From assembly GCA_021372575.1 (NCBI GenBank), contig JAJFUE010000179.1, positions 1-41,381 on the forward strand: a stretch of DNA of 41,381 nt. Direction: 5' to 3'. Under the pieces are notes generated by a model. The model had not been told where the DNA came from and did no database searches. It saw only the letters and a list, made by a program, of their open reading frames with translations. Positions 2,868 to 37,700 of this stretch are shown here, one piece after another; the stretch's first letter is position 1, and each line of letters starts with the position of its first letter. Position numbers and translations under genes: made by a program. This DNA comes from a bacterium. Lineage in GTDB: Bacteria > Sumerlaeota > Sumerlaeia > MVZB01.

Positions 2868-2898
2868 GGCCCCGATCAAACGATCGGGGCCGATTTTT
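2868..2898 (+). terminator. Rho-independent terminator of rpoD
   Basis: A perfect 10-bp GC-rich stem, GGCCCCGATC (2868-2877) with GATCGGGGCC (2882-2891), has a 4-nt AAAC loop and is followed by GATTTTTATT. It lies 25 nt after the rpoD stop codon. Confidence 0.93.
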
Positions 2899-2903
2899 AT
2901 TGA

Positions 2904-2991
2904 GCAAACTGAAGTTTGAACTCCGAACAGGAATTCCGTCCTCTCTCGCATGCTGTCGGAGTTCCTGTTCGGAGTTCAGACTTCAGGTTGC
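2904..2991. repeat. REP-like palindrome, left copy flanking the RAYT gene
   Basis: An 88-bp imperfect palindrome. The left arm starts GCAAACTGAAGTTTGAACTC and the right arm ends GAGTTCAGACTTCAGGTTGC; the arms match over about 35 bp with roughly four mismatches around a ~17-nt loop. It is in the same orientation as the second copy at 3635-3723 and differs from it mainly in the loop. It lies immediately downstream of the transposase stop codon. Confidence 0.9.
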
Positions 2992-2997
2992 TCTAAA

Positions 2998-3603
2998 TTA
3001 CATCTCTGCGTCATCCCATCCCTTTCCATAGTCGTCGATTTTATACTCTCTCCAAATCTCCAGCGCCCTCTTTTCACCCACACGCTTCAGGTATTCCTCC
3101 GCGCTCGAATACGGCCATTCCTGCCATTTCCTTGTATATTGATGATGCACCGGCTGATGGAGCACATAATTCATCGTCGCCCAAAAATGCCGGTCGGAAC
3201 GGATCGCGCGATCAACCGCATTGTACCACACTTTCCGTCCCCGGGTGTTTTCTTCCCCATTCCAGGAAAACGATGTCCGCCCATGTAATTCACCCAGTTC
3301 GTATAGCGTTGCTTTCACATTCTCCGCTCGAATCAATGCATGATAATGATTCGGCAAAACGCACCACGCATAAAGATGATCCGATCGTTTTTCAAAAACA
3401 GCCAATAGCTCGGTTTCGAATGTATCCATCCGTTCCGGTGAATGGCCAATGTAAGATTCGTGCTCATAGCATGCGGCGCTGATATGGTAATTGCGAACTC
3501 CCCGATCTTCATGAGGCGGGCTATGCATCGGCAGTCTTTTAATCCGCCGATTGACCATAATCTTCGCCCTGATTTCAGGTGTTAATTTTCGCCATTCGTA
3601 CAT
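2998..3603 (-). CDS. REP-associated tyrosine transposase (RAYT, Y1 HUH family)
   Basis: The 201-residue protein belongs to the IS200/IS605-like Y1 transposase superfamily that processes single-stranded REP hairpins. The HUH metal-binding motif is NHYHAL (H86, H88), preceded by YAWCVLP as in the family's y.vMPNHvH core. The candidate catalytic tyrosine is Y146 in MNYVLHQPVHH, the position of the YIHxNPV motif of RAYT proteins; the usual Asn is Gln here. A WPYSSAEEY segment follows, as in relatives. The ATG is at 3601-3603 with only a weak ribosome-binding site, normal for such elements. The gene is bracketed by two near-identical ~89-bp palindromes in direct orientation, so gene plus repeats form a REPtron-like unit. 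RAYTs are usually single-copy and domesticated; whether this one is active cannot be told. Confidence 0.92.
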   Translation of the reverse strand: MYEWRKLTPEIRAKIMVNRRIKRLPMHSPPHEDRGVRNYHISAACYEHESYIGHSPERMDTFETELLAVFEKRSDHLYAWCVLPNHYHALIRAENVKATLYELGELHGRTSFSWNGEENTRGRKVWYNAVDRAIRSDRHFWATMNYVLHQPVHHQYTRKWQEWPYSSAEEYLKRVGEKRALEIWREYKIDDYGKGWDDAEM

Positions 3604-3634
3604 GGCCGTACAATTACAAAACGGCTTATAAACC

Positions 3635-3723
3635 GCAAACTAAAGTTTGAACTCCGAACAAGAATTCCATCCTCGTTTCGTTCGGTGTCGGAGTTCCTGT
3701 TCGGAGTTCAAACTTCAGTTTGC
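3635..3723. repeat. REP-like palindrome, right copy flanking the RAYT gene
   Basis: An 89-bp imperfect palindrome that is nearly the same as 2904-2991. GCAAACTAAAGTTTGAACTC opens it and AACTTCAGTTTGC closes it, with arms pairing over about 35 bp. It lies just upstream of the transposase start codon, in the same orientation as the left copy. An open frame of the next gene runs back through it, but that extension is not coding. Confidence 0.9.
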
Positions 3724-3775
3724 TGGCAATCCAAATCCAGATTGTCGGGTTTCGCGGCATTCGTTAGAATCCCTC

Positions 3776-33300: not shown

Positions 33301-34329
33301 GGGATACTTCGTCACGAAAACGCTGCGCGTGAGCGTCGCGCTCGTAAATGCCGGAACTGAGCCGTAAACCGGGTTTGCATAAGCGGCAGAGGTGCCACCG
33401 CCGCCCAGTTGCACGGCATTACCGACCGCCGGAGCGCGGAAGATGCATCTGTCAGCCTGCAAGGTGAATGGCGAGTAACCATTCCTGCTCTGAAGGCAGG
33501 ACGACGGGAAATCGGCGGCATTGGAGGTGGCCCCCAAGGTGCCGATATCGCAGTAACTCATGATCAATAACGCATTCATGTTGTTTAAGGAAATTCCGAC
33601 CGTGCCGAAATTCTTGATCCGGACGTGATCCAGAATGTAAGTCTCATGATTGCTGGATTGATAGTTATTGATATTCGGTCCCGACAGGATCCCAATCGCC
33701 TGGTTCGAGGCGGTGACCAGGTTGTTGGTGACACCCATGTCGATGTCAACGTAACTCAGCTTGATGAATTCGTTGCAATATCCAGCACTGAGGTAAGTAT
33801 TTTTGGTGGAGTGCTGAATCGCATGGATCGCCGGGTTGGAGCCGGTCTCGATGATATTCACGTTTTCCAGGATCGCGTAATTCGAATTGCCCTGGATAAA
33901 GTTAACGACCTGATATAAGGCGGTTGGGGCCGGCTGAGTTTGATACTGTATCGTAATGCGGCCGCCGGAGAGCGAACCGAGTTTCGCGCAGTTTGCCGTC
34001 GTTGTGCCGCCGGAGCCGTTCATGAACGCGACAAACGCGCGCATGTTGCCGAGCGAGGAAGGAACGGGGCCCGGCAGCTCGGGAATATTGCCCGCGTTGG
34101 TTATGACCGGGGTTTGGCCTAAATCGGCAGTGATGTAAACCACCTTGTTGATGATCAGTTGAGTTTCCGTGTAGGTCGCGCTATCGGTGATGTTGATCGT
34201 ATCACCGGCGGTGGCGGCGGTAATTGCTGCCGACAAAACGCCGGTCCCACCGCCCGAGATGTTGGTCGTTGCCGCGGTCGCGACCGACGCGAGCATGACA
34301 AACAACAAGGCCAAAACTATTTTCTTCAT
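30322..34329 (-). CDS. Large secreted protein: beta-helix, InlB B-repeats, beta-helix
   Basis: 1335 residues. Signal peptide MKKIVLALLFVMLASVATAA. Residues ~22-570 and ~880-1335 look like right-handed parallel beta-helices of the pectate-lyase/Beta_helix type: both open with a GTI/ITAATAGDTI-type start, then have many LxNVNI/LDHVRIKNFG rungs. Between them are five repeats of about 70 residues of the bacterial InlB B-repeat type (TYTAGANGTITGTTPQTVDH ... NYHFVSWSDG). The last two are nearly identical and come from a 213-bp tandem duplication (about 31700-32120). AGGAG lies 9 nt before the ATG. Base composition in the first third is lower in GC than the neighbours. Beta-helix proteins bind or cleave polysaccharide; no lyase active site is recognised, so adhesin/surface protein is equally likely. 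Confidence 0.85.
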   Translation of the reverse strand: MKKIVLALLFVMLASVATAATTNISGGGTGVLSAAITAATAGDTINITDSATYTETQLIINKVVYITADLGQTPVITNAGNIPELPGPVPSSLGNMRAFVAFMNGSGGTTTANCAKLGSLSGGRITIQYQTQPAPTALYQVVNFIQGNSNYAILENVNIIETGSNPAIHAIQHSTKNTYLSAGYCNEFIKLSYVDIDMGVTNNLVTASNQAIGILSGPNINNYQSSNHETYILDHVRIKNFGTVGISLNNMNALLIMSYCDIGTLGATSNAADFPSSCLQSRNGYSPFTLQADRCIFRAPAVGNAVQLGGGGTSAAYANPVYGSVPAFTSATLTRSVFVTKYPRNASGGQAPGASAGYGPVTFYANGGTWTAARPQQIHFDHCDIVDMTTTTLTNVACFARPASQRANTATSLTVTNCNVYSANNAAFINLANTTSFPISIVENNNNWFGPVASSGITVGAGAGDLSVDPGYLYPEAGDVRYSNTALKTADALGGPIGIDAGYGDIASGTIENKIGVRYAANPTAGGTIDGVTSTTYNINSGDSCPAKTAAVNAHYTWGGWSDSNMSLSRTDTAITSSKIFKANFILDTYTVNYAAAANGEVTGTLSQVIGWNLNGTPVTAIPATGYHFTQWEDALTSNPRTDFNVAANATHTASFAINTYNYNYVAGANGTVNGAASVTGTADHGASGPSVTAAPASGYAFSKWLDNNSTNPTRQDVFTADLTTTATFEALTQFTLTYTAGANGTITGTTPQTVDHGGNGSQVTAVANSNYHFVSWSDGVLTAARTDTNVTANISVTATFAINTHTLTYTAGSNGTISGTTPQTVDHGGNGTQVTAVANSNYHFVNWSDGVLTAARTDTNVTADISVTANFAVDINSIKVPTQYGTIQAAINAAAEGETVEIVNSATYKENLRINKSVNLIATAGQSPKVEQADNTTTCPIILGVTASPVTIQLGSLSGGRITFQYMKWGTANAATMPVGHIYMGVTTGSTVRIENCDIVSTGPTTYAPVTGIAHHQNPCSVTLRYVNMNLNRADYAAGGVSTDRVGCTGIDLSNNSPTGGTPVTRRIPGPTYTLDHVRIKGYVRAGLWLSYTSATLNLNNVDIGTFGENTLIGTANIPWGPVVAFNAASQWTGRIQNSIFQGPMNYPAFGKIGPLGTSITLNRCVLLGSGGTNAAYGTLDAGSQNAGTGSPVRLSLDHCDLVHLGIAPASALVRNVANGSIIMNITNSNIYSQGAQAINLTQIASPSVFNSSYNNVFGATANVGYTAGTGDVSSNPNYSDAAGGDVRYMNNLLKTADSVGGPVGCNGDYGDVYTGIGPGVGVVNRAHGWAVLE
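31695..32126. repeat. 213-bp tandem duplication encoding InlB repeats
   Basis: Two adjacent copies 213 bp apart (for example GTGTAGGTCA at 31898 and 32111) with only scattered differences. They encode repeats four and five of the InlB block, pointing to recent expansion or homogenisation. Confidence 0.85.
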
Positions 34330-34518
34330 AACGCCTGCTCCTAGTGAAAAAATTACAAGGATTTAATTCACGAAAAACCTCTCTTTTTTTGCCCTTCGTT
34401 CCCTCCTTCTGTTCGTATTTTGAGTTTCACGCACTCGGATCCAAATGTCCGAAATCTGCGTTAAACATTAACAAACACATAGGCATGCATGTCCGGGGCG
34501 AGAAATTCAGATGCTCAT

Positions 34519-34547
34519 ATCTAAATGGTTTTTCAGATTTGAGTCAA
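34519..34547 (-). promoter_or_regulatory. Candidate promoter of the beta-helix/InlB gene
   Basis: On the minus strand TTGACT (34542-34547) and TTAGAT (34519-34524) are 17 bp apart in AT-rich sequence. The leader would be about 185 nt, which is long for such a gene. Confidence 0.5.
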
Positions 34548-34663
34548 GCCAAAAGAAGAAAAATTTCACAATATGTTCATAAAGCTCGAAATCGAATTTT
34601 GTGATTTGAAGAATTTATAGGCAAAGTACCGGAAACGGCATTCCGACTGGTGGTTTCAAATAA

Positions 34664-34690
34664 TGACCGCCGCCAACCGGGCGGCGGTCA
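34664..34690 (-). terminator. Terminator-like hairpin after the first propeller gene
   Basis: An 11-bp stem, TGACCGCCGCC (34664-34674) with GGCGGCGGTCA (34680-34690), has a 5-nt loop. The minus-strand tail ATTATTTG is only moderately T-rich. Confidence 0.7.
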
Positions 34691-34720
34691 TTTTCGAACA
34701 CAGGGGGGCATCAACGGCGC

Positions 34721-37700
34721 TTACCGTCCGATCCGCGCCCCGCTGGCGTAGGGTTCGATCCGGACGGGCTGCGTGATGCGCGCGCCGGCGGGCGTTGTGC
34801 CGCCAAGGTGCATCGTGCCGCCGCCCGTCAGTTCGCTGAGGCCCTCGTCCAGAGTGTTGAACGGCGTGTCCGGCGCGCCGGTCTCGACGCCAAAGTAGTT
34901 GAAGTTGACCCAGATTTGCGAGCCGTAGTAGGTCAGGTATTCGGTCCAGAGGTTGCTAGTCGCTTGAGCGGTGGCCGGGTCGATCGTCGTCGGGAACAGG
35001 CCGTATGGCTGGCTCAAATAGAAACCGTTGCCCGACAGGCCGGAGGTGTAGCTGGGCACGTCGCCGGTCGAGTCGGCCTGCCAGGCGAGCCAGTAGTTGC
35101 CGGCCGGAAGCGTCAGGCCGGTGACGGGGACGATGTTCCAGCCGCTCATGGCCGCCATTGAGGGGGACTGCCAGAGCAGGTTGCGCGGCGAGTTGTTGTC
35201 ATAGACCGCGAGGCGCAGGTTTCCCCTGGTCTCGTGCGAGTAGAAACGGACGTCCTTGACCGGGCCCTGCTCGGGCATCTGGATGAGGTTCGCGTGGACG
35301 AAGGTGTTGTAGGCGATGCCGATCTTCACGATCCTGCCCGGGACGGAGTTGGCCGCGAAGTAAGCGCAGCCGCGGCCGGCGTCGATGAGCGCCGGGCTTC
35401 GGAAGTTGCCCTCGCCGGAGCCCAGTGTCAGCGCACCGGCCTTCGTGAAATCGGAGAGGCGCACCTTGAGGACCATGCCCGGGTCGAGGCTCGTGCCGAA
35501 ATAGGCGTAACCGCCGGCCGTGTCGATGCCCGCGCTCGCGATCGCGGTTTCCTCGGAGCTCAGAGGCATCTCGCCGGTGATGGTGAAATCGTAGAGGCGG
35601 ACTTTGACGATGTTCGTGGGATTGGGATACGTGTATGGCGCGAAATACGCATATCCGCCCGCCGGATCGATCGTCGCGCTCTGCAGGTTTGACTCGGTCG
35701 AATTGAGCGTCAGGATGCCGTCACACAGGAAGTCCGACAGGCGGATCCGGGCCACCATGCCCGGGCTGGTGTTCGTGCCGAAATAAGCGTAACCGCGGCT
35801 GGAGTCGATGACCGCGCACTTGGGGCTGTTCAGGCCCGTGCCGAGCTTCAGGGTGTCGAGGACGGTGAAATCCGACAGCCGCACTTTGACGATCCGTCCG
35901 GGGCTCATCTCGGAGCCGAAGTAGGCATAGGTGCCGGCGGGGTCCATGACGGCGCACACGAGTGAATTGACGCCGGTGCTGAGAACGGCGACGCGCGTGA
36001 AGTCGGAGAGCCGGACCTTGACGATCTTGCCCGGGGCGGTGTAGGTGCCGAAGTAGGCGTATTCGCCGGCCGGATCGATGAGGGCGCTCGCGAGCCAGTC
36101 CTCGCCGGCGTTGAGCGAGAGGGCATCGACGCGCGCGAAGTCCGAGAGTCGGATCTTGACGACGATCCCCGGCTCGGTGCCCGTTCCGAAATACGCGTAG
36201 GTGCGGGTCGGGTCGATCACGGAACTGGCGAAGTAATTCTCGCCGGTCGGCAGCGTGATCGTGGCGGAGCGGGTGAAATCGGAGAGGCCCACCTTGACGA
36301 CTTTCGCCGGCGTCGTGCAGGTCCCGAAATACGCGAACTTTGCCGCCGGATCGATCAGCCCCGTCTTGACCAGCGTTTCGGTCTGCAGCGTCAGCGTGGA
36401 TTCGCGCGTGAACGACCCAAGGTTCACCTTGATCACGTGGCCGGGGTAGTTGTTCGTCGCGAAGTAACCGAACCCCGCGGCCGGATCGACCGCGGCGGTC
36501 GTGATGCGGTTCTCGCCTGAGTAGGCCGTGATCGCGCCGATGCGGCTGAACGTGGAGAGCCGGATCTTGACGATCGAGCCGGGTTCGGTGTCGGTGCCGA
36601 AATACGCGGCGTCGCCGGCCGGGTCGATTGCCGCGCTGACCGGAATGCTCTCTGGGAGCGTGATCGCGCCGGTGCGCGTGAACGTCGAGAGCGCGATCCG
36701 CACGATGGTGCCGGGAGACGTGTAGCAGCCGAAATACGCGTAGCCGCCGGCCGGGTCGATCGCCGCGCACTTGAGCGAGGACTCGCCGCTGGCGAGCCGG
36801 ATGTAACCGACGCGCGTGAAATCCGAGAGGCGGACCTTGACGATCGTCCCCGGGCTACCCCAGTTCGTGCCGAAATAGGCATAACCGGCGGCCGGGTCGA
36901 TCACCGCGCTCGTGAGGAGCGTCTCGCCGGCGTTGAGTGTCAGCGCGCCGACCCGCGTGAAGTCCGACAGGCGGATCTTGACGATCACGCCGGGATCGCC
37001 ATAGTTCGTGCCGAAATACGCGTAGCCCCCCGCTTGGTCGATCACCGCGCACATGATGTTGTTCTCGTATGCGTTGAGCGTGAGCGACGCCACGCGCGTG
37101 AAATCCGACAGGCGTACCTTGATGATGACCGACGGCGAGGACGCCGTCGCGAAATACGCGTAGCCGCCCGCCGGATCGATCACGCCGCAGTTGATCTGGC
37201 TTTCATTGTAGGTGCAGATCGTGTTGCCTTCGCGGCGCATGCCGGCGGAAGGGTAGTTGGTCGAGCCCACCGTGCTGTTGCCGGCCGCCGGGTCGGAGAA
37301 CGAGAGCGAGCGGTCGATGTGGGTGTGGCCTTTTTTGTCGGTGACGCGCAGAGAGATCCTATAGACCTGCTCCTTGAGCCCGCGCGCCTTCCAGTCGGCC
37401 CTGAACAGGGCGACCGGGTTGCCGGGCATCGCGCCGCCGAGGTTCATCGGCGCCGGCTTGAGCTGCACGGTCTCGAGGCCCTCGATCTCGGCTTCGACTT
37501 TCGCGACCCCGGCCGGGGCCTTGACCAGCGCCTGGATCGTCAGCGTGCCGCCGTTCTTGACGGACGGGGCAGAGAGGGTTGGGATGATGTGGATGCGCGA
37601 GTCACCGGTGCCGACCGGAGCGGGCGCCTTGGCCGCGAATGAAAACGATGGGACGAGCAGAAGGAGTGCCATCGTGAGGATTCGAATCCGCCGAACGAAA

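Follow-up and report, generated by a model that had tools for sequence, protein, structure and literature searches.

The REPtron of Escherichia coli (RAYT group 2; TnpA_REP, PDB 4er8) is one of several described systems that resemble the locus reported here, which lies on a 41,381-nt contig of a Sumerlaeota bacterium (JAJFUE010000179.1, assembly GCA_021372575.1), analysed whole and referred to below as the window. The two systems share the fold, the HUH-Tyr core, flanking REP dimers, dispersed REPs and a guide tetranucleotide 5′ of the hairpin. In contrast to E. coli, the hairpin here has no bulge and a stem of only 5 bp, the guide is GGAG and not GTAG, a 2-nt spacer follows it, and the transposase carries Gln rather than Asn four residues after the tyrosine (Y+4). 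According to the available part of one account, biochemical work on REP choice by RAYTs covers few systems only: E. coli, Stenotrophomonas and Marinomonas (PMC8266576).

Further groups offer partial parallels, as far as the published excerpts allow comparison. Judged by its printed motifs, TnpA_Y1 subclass 2.8 (Quentin et al. 2018, PMC6006769) is similar in NHYH, in W[YH] and in its length of about 199 aa; the sample described there consists of eight proteins from cyanobacteria, whose motif is YIHYNP and whose REPs are "long canonical" ones with GT[AG]G, and relatives are noted in other phyla of nr, whereas the hairpins here are short (5 bp) and headed by GTAG, GGAG, GGTG or GTTG. RAYT group 3 (subclass 2.5), with its GTAG-1/-2 REPs (PMC3733652, PMC6006769), also has a short hairpin, unpaired bases after the head, very short loops and more than one REPtron per genome, but its proteins have DH[LF]H and WQ as printed where those described here have NHYH, and the heads here also include GGAG and GGTG. 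The REPs of Haemophilus influenzae and Thioalkalivibrio HL-EbGR7 have the same CTTCAG/CTTTAG hairpin tips; in the examples printed, however, GTAG abuts the base of a longer stem with no spacer (PMC2817692). Finally, the REPINs of Pseudomonas fluorescens SBW25 are inverted REP doublets beside a RAYT that can fold as hairpins, much as found here. The excerpted SBW25 figures place 61% of REPs in doublets and describe singlets as less conserved (PMC3116915), while 36 of 56 units in the present host are single and as well conserved as the units in dimers.

Layout of the locus and anatomy of the repeat unit

The original prediction described a Y1 HUH gene bracketed by two nearly identical palindromes of about 89 bp, and this arrangement was borne out. 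The palindromes occupy positions 2902-2993 and 3633-3725, have arms of 34-37 nt that are 91-92% complementary, and are 93-95% identical to each other over their halves; the RAYT reading frame between them ends 4 bp short of the left palindrome and starts 29 bp from the right one (Table 1). Both fold on their own far better than shuffled sequences (z −8 to −11; 0 of 200 shuffles equally stable), and the REP core pattern has four matches within the window, with none expected. The view of each palindrome as one REP of more than typical length did not survive: each palindrome of about 90 bp consists of two 42-nt units in inverted orientation, each with a REP core of 24-26 nt, and a single long REP of about 89 bp is ruled out because most genomic copies are lone 42-nt units. 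Just outside the REPtron, a terminator-like hairpin follows a convergent upstream gene (1088-2842), whose product was judged by eye to be sigma-70-like. The RAYT gene has a GC content of 0.485, compared with 0.615 for the window, and a GC3 of 0.515, compared with 0.82-0.86 in two neighbours, and may therefore have been acquired. Another stretch of the window, 34038-34745, has a similarly low GC (about 0.47).

Table 1. Coordinates of the REPtron features, numbered from the first base of the window
Feature	Position	Strand	Basis or remark
RAYT / TnpA_REP-like HUH-Y1 transposase gene, 201 aa	2998..3603	(-)	Open reading frame, NCBIfam, profile and fold match to 4er8
HUH motif codons, H86-Y87-H88	3340..3348	(-)	Translation; both His invariant in the alignment
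Putative catalytic Tyr146 codon	3166..3168	(-)	Y146 invariant; role inferred from the HUH-Y1 family
Gln150 codon (Y+4)	3154..3156	(-)	Asn in other clade members
REP unit 1, left dimer	2902..2943	(-)	Head GGAG 2921-2924 (-)
REP unit 2, left dimer	2952..2993	(+)	Head GGAG 2971-2974 (+); left-dimer heads point inwards
REP unit 3, right dimer	3633..3674	(-)	Head GGAG 3652-3655 (-)
REP unit 4, right dimer	3684..3725	(+)	Head GGAG 3703-3706 (+); right-dimer heads point inwards
Intrinsic-terminator-like hairpin	2868..2891	(+)	Consensus scan; weak (2 found vs 1.0 expected)

Fifty-six genomic copies of the unit align without gaps and with sharp ends, giving the 42-nt consensus GATGTCGGAATTCCTGTTCGGAGTTCAAACTTCAGTTTGCTC; eight copies from one multi-copy region, mostly at contig ends, were left out of this alignment. 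The REP core reads GTTC-GGAG-TT-CAAAC-TTCA-GTTTG, preceded by T (38 units), G (11) or A (7). The guide, or head, GGAG is invariant in all 56 units and is followed by the spacer TT, and 64 of the 66 core matches in the genome have GGAGTTC in place. A canonical REP has a GT[AG]G head by the definition excerpted from PMC6006769; the window repeat is a REP carrying another guide. Its hairpin has a 5-bp stem and a TTCA/TTTA loop (CAAAC-TTYA-GTTTG or CAAGC-TTYA-GCTTG), and one stem pair swaps on both sides, from A-T to G-C, in 23 of 55 units (shuffle mean 9.3; 0 of 500 shuffles as high). The unit also holds a second small hairpin, GAATTCC-NGTTC-GGAGTTC, with the guide inside its 3′ arm. The pairs of this hairpin form in 99.1% of cells and vary on one side only; in its 5′ arm (columns 8-13), 18 of 21 substitutions preserve the pair, and its first loop base shows transversions only (18 of 18). 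Possibly it is what remains of an inverted head. Comparison with known RNA families gave only sub-threshold matches (RF03060, 21.8 bits against 36.8; RF02498, 17.7 against 100).

Units within 100 bp of each other form 10 dimers (20 of the 56 units), of which 4 have their heads inside, including the 2 that flank the RAYT, and 6 have them outside. The identity of single and dimer units is practically the same (0.900 vs 0.894; 760 of 2000 shuffles as extreme), and the host units thus show neither the predominance nor the better conservation of doublets that characterizes REPINs.

The transposase and its clade

The NCBIfam model NF047646 (REP_Tyr_transpos) matches the window RAYT at 63.3 bits (E 2.2e-17), below its curated cut-off of 80 bits, which 4 of the 9 clade members with bit scores listed do reach; all 17 members of an alignment of relatives (A1) match the model at E ≤ 0.001. 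A Pfam search of the window protein gave no match at 1e-3. A 17-sequence family profile compared with the PDB found E. coli TnpA_REP (4er8, a RAYT with bound REP hairpin) at E 2.5e-8, and the same entry was the top PDB match of an AlphaFold2 model of the window RAYT (mean pLDDT 82; E 1.4e-7). The HUH and tyrosine residues of a RAYT, here H86, H88 and Y146, are invariant in the alignment.

The usual class-2 Y-motif, as printed in PMC6006769, is Y---NP, and the window copy instead reads YVLHQP. The exchange of Asn for Gln noticed earlier is real, at Gln150, and is private to the window copy: Asn stands at Y+4 in 69 of the 70 clade members readable there (of 71 rows, that of L230 is truncated at this position). 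Gln as a family trait is ruled out, and since the other 69 have kept Asn, we file the clade as RAYT and the window copy as a variant inside it. In E. coli TnpA_REP, the Asn is an assigned metal ligand. IS608 TnpA also uses Gln (Q131) at the corresponding place, as excerpted from PMC6006769, and by this analogy the window RAYT may have retained its activity.

The clade spans PVC phyla, Hydrogenedentota and Sumerlaeota. A scan of genome contigs found 18 loci in Verrucomicrobia/Verrucomicrobium, Planctomycetota, Phycisphaerae/Phycisphaerales, Lentisphaerae/Lentisphaeria, Kiritimatiellales, Hydrogenedentota and Sumerlaeota, and profile searches at E ≤ 1e-25 found members in 52 of 387 genomes of the phylum around a Verrucomicrobium (G158) and in 11 of 392 genomes of the phylum around a planctomycete (G147). 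We defined the clade as the 71 of 78 nonredundant RAYTs that score at least 190 bits and searched within 350 bp of each for a REP built of head, 2 nt, 5-bp stem and TTNA loop. Such REPs are present at 47 of the 71 members and on both sides of the gene at 37; many of the 24 RAYTs where none was found within 350 bp belong to a deeper branch. The 47,254 bp within 350 bp of a RAYT hold 222 of them, the 85,032 bp lying more than 1 kb away hold 23, and reversed sequence gave 3. Because the search demanded a perfect stem, stem pairing here carries no evidence. Among 160 distinct REPs, the loop is TTCA/TTTA in 159, the spacer begins with T in all 160 and the stem begins with C in 156, with 28 different stems. 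At the 44 loci with at least two REPs, 210 of 220 REPs bear the head most common at their locus, and at 38 loci only one head occurs (by locus, GTAG 22, GGAG 17, GGTG 4 and GTTG 1). The clade has a rigid grammar in which the head is nearly fixed per locus and the stem is free. No description of this clade or its grammar was found in the RAYT and REP literature searched; the REPtron itself is a known kind of system.

Copies, placement and possible activity in the host genome

The host genome (G000; 4.63 Mb in 214 contigs, the window being contig C31) contains the further copies of the palindrome sequence on which the original prediction hinged. The 19-nt unit core has 66 matches at up to 3 mismatches (36 on one strand and 30 on the other), and the 24-nt core has 82 at up to 2 mismatches, with none in the reversed control in either case; 33 of the 66 are identical over all 19 nt, which suggests recent spread. 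The units are largely intergenic (53 of 64 classified units, with 6 overlapping a gene end and 5 intragenic). The underlying gene calls are approximate: they come from a gene finder based on codon usage, with the window as training set, and it missed the RAYT owing to the atypical codon use of that gene. The RAYT is single-copy. Its nearest relative in the genome is a 52%-identical paralogue (C155:39836-40438), and four distant Y1 genes were also noted (G000:C127:11732, C82:3660, C76:13457 and C100:58236; 21-27% identity, one with an internal TGA). The paralogue is flanked by GTAG-TY-CCGCC-TTCA-GGCGG, with 83 matches genome-wide at up to 2 mismatches (control 0) and a unit of only 26 nt, from GTTC to AA (28 unique copies). 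Since the paralogue bears a different family, the flanking palindromes do identify the cognate REP family of the window RAYT, as had been proposed: GGAG-TT-CAAAC for the window and GTAG-TY-CCGCC for the paralogue.

Other repeated sequences were also seen in the host genome. A multi-copy REP-bearing region occurs at the ends of contigs C6, C7, C28, C83, C85, C149 and C152 and at C8:21267, and in several copies a second, degenerate unit of like orientation follows at a distance of 56 bp; lying mostly at contig ends, it probably broke the assembly. A separate repeat, (GTAG)TCCCTCGCTYACGCTCGGGCTACTGCAT, often lies 50-100 bp from REPs (e.g., L094, L064, L073 and L074), in 11 distinct contexts among the fetched loci. 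With GTAG and CTAC ends in some copies, it looks like a double-foot REP of another RAYT.

These counts bear directly on the possibility that the palindromes delimit an autonomous IS200/IS605-like element, gene and ends moving together. Near-identical palindromes at both ends of an HUH-Y1 gene, the Gln at Y+4 shared with IS608 and the low GC and GC3 of a possibly acquired gene would all suit such an element. However, in IS200/IS605 elements the gene and its ends multiply together, whereas here no second gene copy exceeds 52% identity and yet tens of solo units are present; in addition, relatives have Asn, not Gln, and carry head-tagged hairpins on both sides at 37 of 71 loci, and searches of 72,556 plasmid and 50,697 phage records gave no match to the gene. 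The contrast between one gene copy and many units leads us to reject the IS-end reading, which is largely refuted and now highly improbable. Spread of the gene by plasmid or phage was dropped as a candidate on the same record search.

A different alternative treats the hairpins as host RNA elements, either terminators or stabilizers of mRNA ends, with only a secondary link to the RAYT. Units near gene 3′ ends are mostly on the strand of the gene, just after the stop codon, and among the 60 units whose flanks were long enough, the ones lying no more than 30 bp from a predicted 3′ end turn the head side towards the gene 13 times and the tail side 2 times; GU-compatible changes also predominate in the second hairpin. 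Against this, no T-run belongs to the conserved 42-nt unit in the 56-copy alignment, the core grammar tracks the RAYT clade across phyla despite differing stems, and two RAYTs in one genome have two families. We therefore consider an RNA element unlikely as the primary identity of the units, while a secondary role at mRNA 3′ ends is compatible with a REP origin.

The locus is very probably a REPtron, as predicted: a single-copy RAYT with dimers of its own cognate REP on either side. The anatomy, the copy number, the dispersion of units, the one REP family per RAYT and the grammar around related RAYTs are direct observations on which this reading is built, and by analogy with TnpA_REP biochemistry, REPs would be mobilized in trans. 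In this scheme, (i) the RAYT would bind the folded single-stranded REP through guide and hairpin, as described for TnpA_REP in the available part of PMC8266576, (ii) Tyr146 would cut beside the REP, forming a 5′-phosphotyrosine link, and (iii) strand transfer would copy or move REP units in trans to other, mostly intergenic, sites. A TnpA_REP-like mechanism is supported by the conservation of guide and stem, by the dispersion of the units and by the separate family of each RAYT, whereas its chemistry and the movement of REPs are inferred; neither a transposition event nor an empty site nor a transcript was observed. Also counting against the REPtron reading are the NCBIfam score below the cut-off, the lack of a Pfam match at 1e-3, the 24 clade members with no such REP within 350 bp, the many REPs but no such RAYT found in the related genome G002, and the GGAG guide outside GT[AG]G.

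Because Gln150 is private to the window copy, the enzyme could also be altered or decaying, and the REPs could be relics of a REPtron whose RAYT is now inactive. This reading departs from the preferred one in present activity only, and the two are not mutually exclusive. It is in keeping with the one-in-70 exchange of Asn for Gln and with Asp131, a residue that in the clade mostly accompanies GTAG heads but here occurs with GGAG. The open frame, the retention of the other invariant residues and the recent spread suggested by the identical cores speak for a functional enzyme, and we regard present inactivity as rather improbable, though less so than the alternatives above.

Related genomes, head-to-tail arrays and a possible guide code

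Of 22 genomes, 20 contain the exact pattern GKWGTNCNNNCTTYAGNNNG, the copy number ranging from 1 to 1263 (0 to 9 in the reversed control); G018 and G154, both counted among the 22, are apparently one genome, and G001 and G011 had no copies. In most genomes the excess was large, but it was slight in G153 (18 vs 9), G149 (13 vs 2), G161 (4 vs 1), G163 (4 vs 3) and G159 (1 vs 0), all of them reached through a clade RAYT locus. The highest count came from the 8.9-Mb planctomycete genome G147, the source of L131 (1263 matches; control 6), which has at least three REP families (GGAG-TC-CTGCC, GGAG-TC-CCGCC and G[TG]AG-TG-CGGCC), three clade RAYTs and one more distant RAYT. The window core at up to 2 mismatches is far more restricted, with 80 matches in G018, 76 in G002, 1 in G012 and none in 37 of 41 genomes. 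G018 belongs to the class of the host, and its RAYT is the same as that of L138, a Candidatus Sumerlaeota locus. Most of the G018 matches listed have a GTAG head on the stem of the window. No RAYT of the window's kind was found in G002, a 71% complete genome from the taxonomic family of the host; either its REPs are orphans or a contig is missing.

Two Sumerlaeota relatives contain head-to-tail arrays in exact register, with periods of 26 nt and 35 nt. In 20 stretches of G018, picked mostly for clustered matches, the gap between neighbours on the same strand is exactly 26 nt in 39 of 45 cases, and more than one unit type occurs in 15 of 24 arrays. The 35-nt period comes from one array (overlapping loci L259 and L262), which probably belongs to G002. 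Of 44 pairs of neighbouring units, 25 share their stem and 19 do not, as composition predicts (0.58), which disfavours simple slippage; loop bases, however, agree in 35 of 44 (expected 0.50), which favours some local duplication. A C|T junction, the dinucleotide cleaved by TnpA_REP, was considered for these arrays but is not supported: in G018 the junction is CC in 32 of 43 gaps shorter than 60 nt and CT in 5. By eye, a terminator-like hairpin often directly follows the REP arrays of G018 (L264, L265, L270, L274 and L280), itself with a TTCA/TTTA tip (e.g., CCCCGC-TTCA-GCGGGG). No description of single-unit arrays was found in the excerpted REP literature searched, and they may still have been reported.

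Variation in the head offers a lead on guide specificity. At 48 loci (the 44 with at least two grammar REPs and 4 added through a wider geometry), RAYT positions 131 and 32 are the best predictors of head base 2 (leave-one-out 0.875 and 0.844). Residue 131 is Asp in 21 of 23 GT.G loci and Glu in 16 of 21 GG.G loci; residue 32 is hydrophobic in 23 of 25 GT.G loci and Arg in 13 of 23 GG.G loci. By parsimony, however, the head changed only about four times on the tree. When labels were simulated on the tree, the observed value was reached by position 131 in 7 of 300 runs and by position 32 in 50 of 300, and some column equalled the best observed value in 26 of 300. Seven of the top 15 columns fall within 125-135 (reached in 1 of 300), although the mean excess of this segment was reached in 49 of 300. 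Counter-examples are L137 (GTAG with Arg32, beside GGAG relatives) and the window copy (GGAG with Asp131). In the model, residue 32 lies just before β1 (37-45) and 131 in a strand (127-133) taken as β4; position 131 aligns with E. coli E100, and regions like those around 32 and 131 contact GTAG in the E. coli RAYT, as excerpted from PMC8266576. With so few head changes, the association is suggestive, and a guide code at residues 32 and 131 is a lead only.

One joint reading, which we offer tentatively as possible but doubtful, would unite these results. The cross-phylum clade would use a modular cassette (GTWY, guide G[TG][AT]G, TN and CNNNC-TTYA-GNNNG) in which guide and stem vary independently and guide base 2 is read by positions 32 and 131, and the Sumerlaeota enzyme would insert single cassettes beside resident ones at their boundary, producing exact-register head-to-tail arrays with mixed stems.

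Few partnerships of a transposase and its substrate that host genomes maintain are as small as RAYT-REP pairs. In this clade a single rigid scaffold comes in dozens of natural variants that differ in guide and stem, with different pairs even inside one genome, so that swaps could be used to test guide specificity. Both the head-to-tail arrays and the finding that single units are conserved as well as dimer units are relevant to the nature of the replicating unit; if the cassette reading is true, this unit would be the single REP and not the REPIN doublet.
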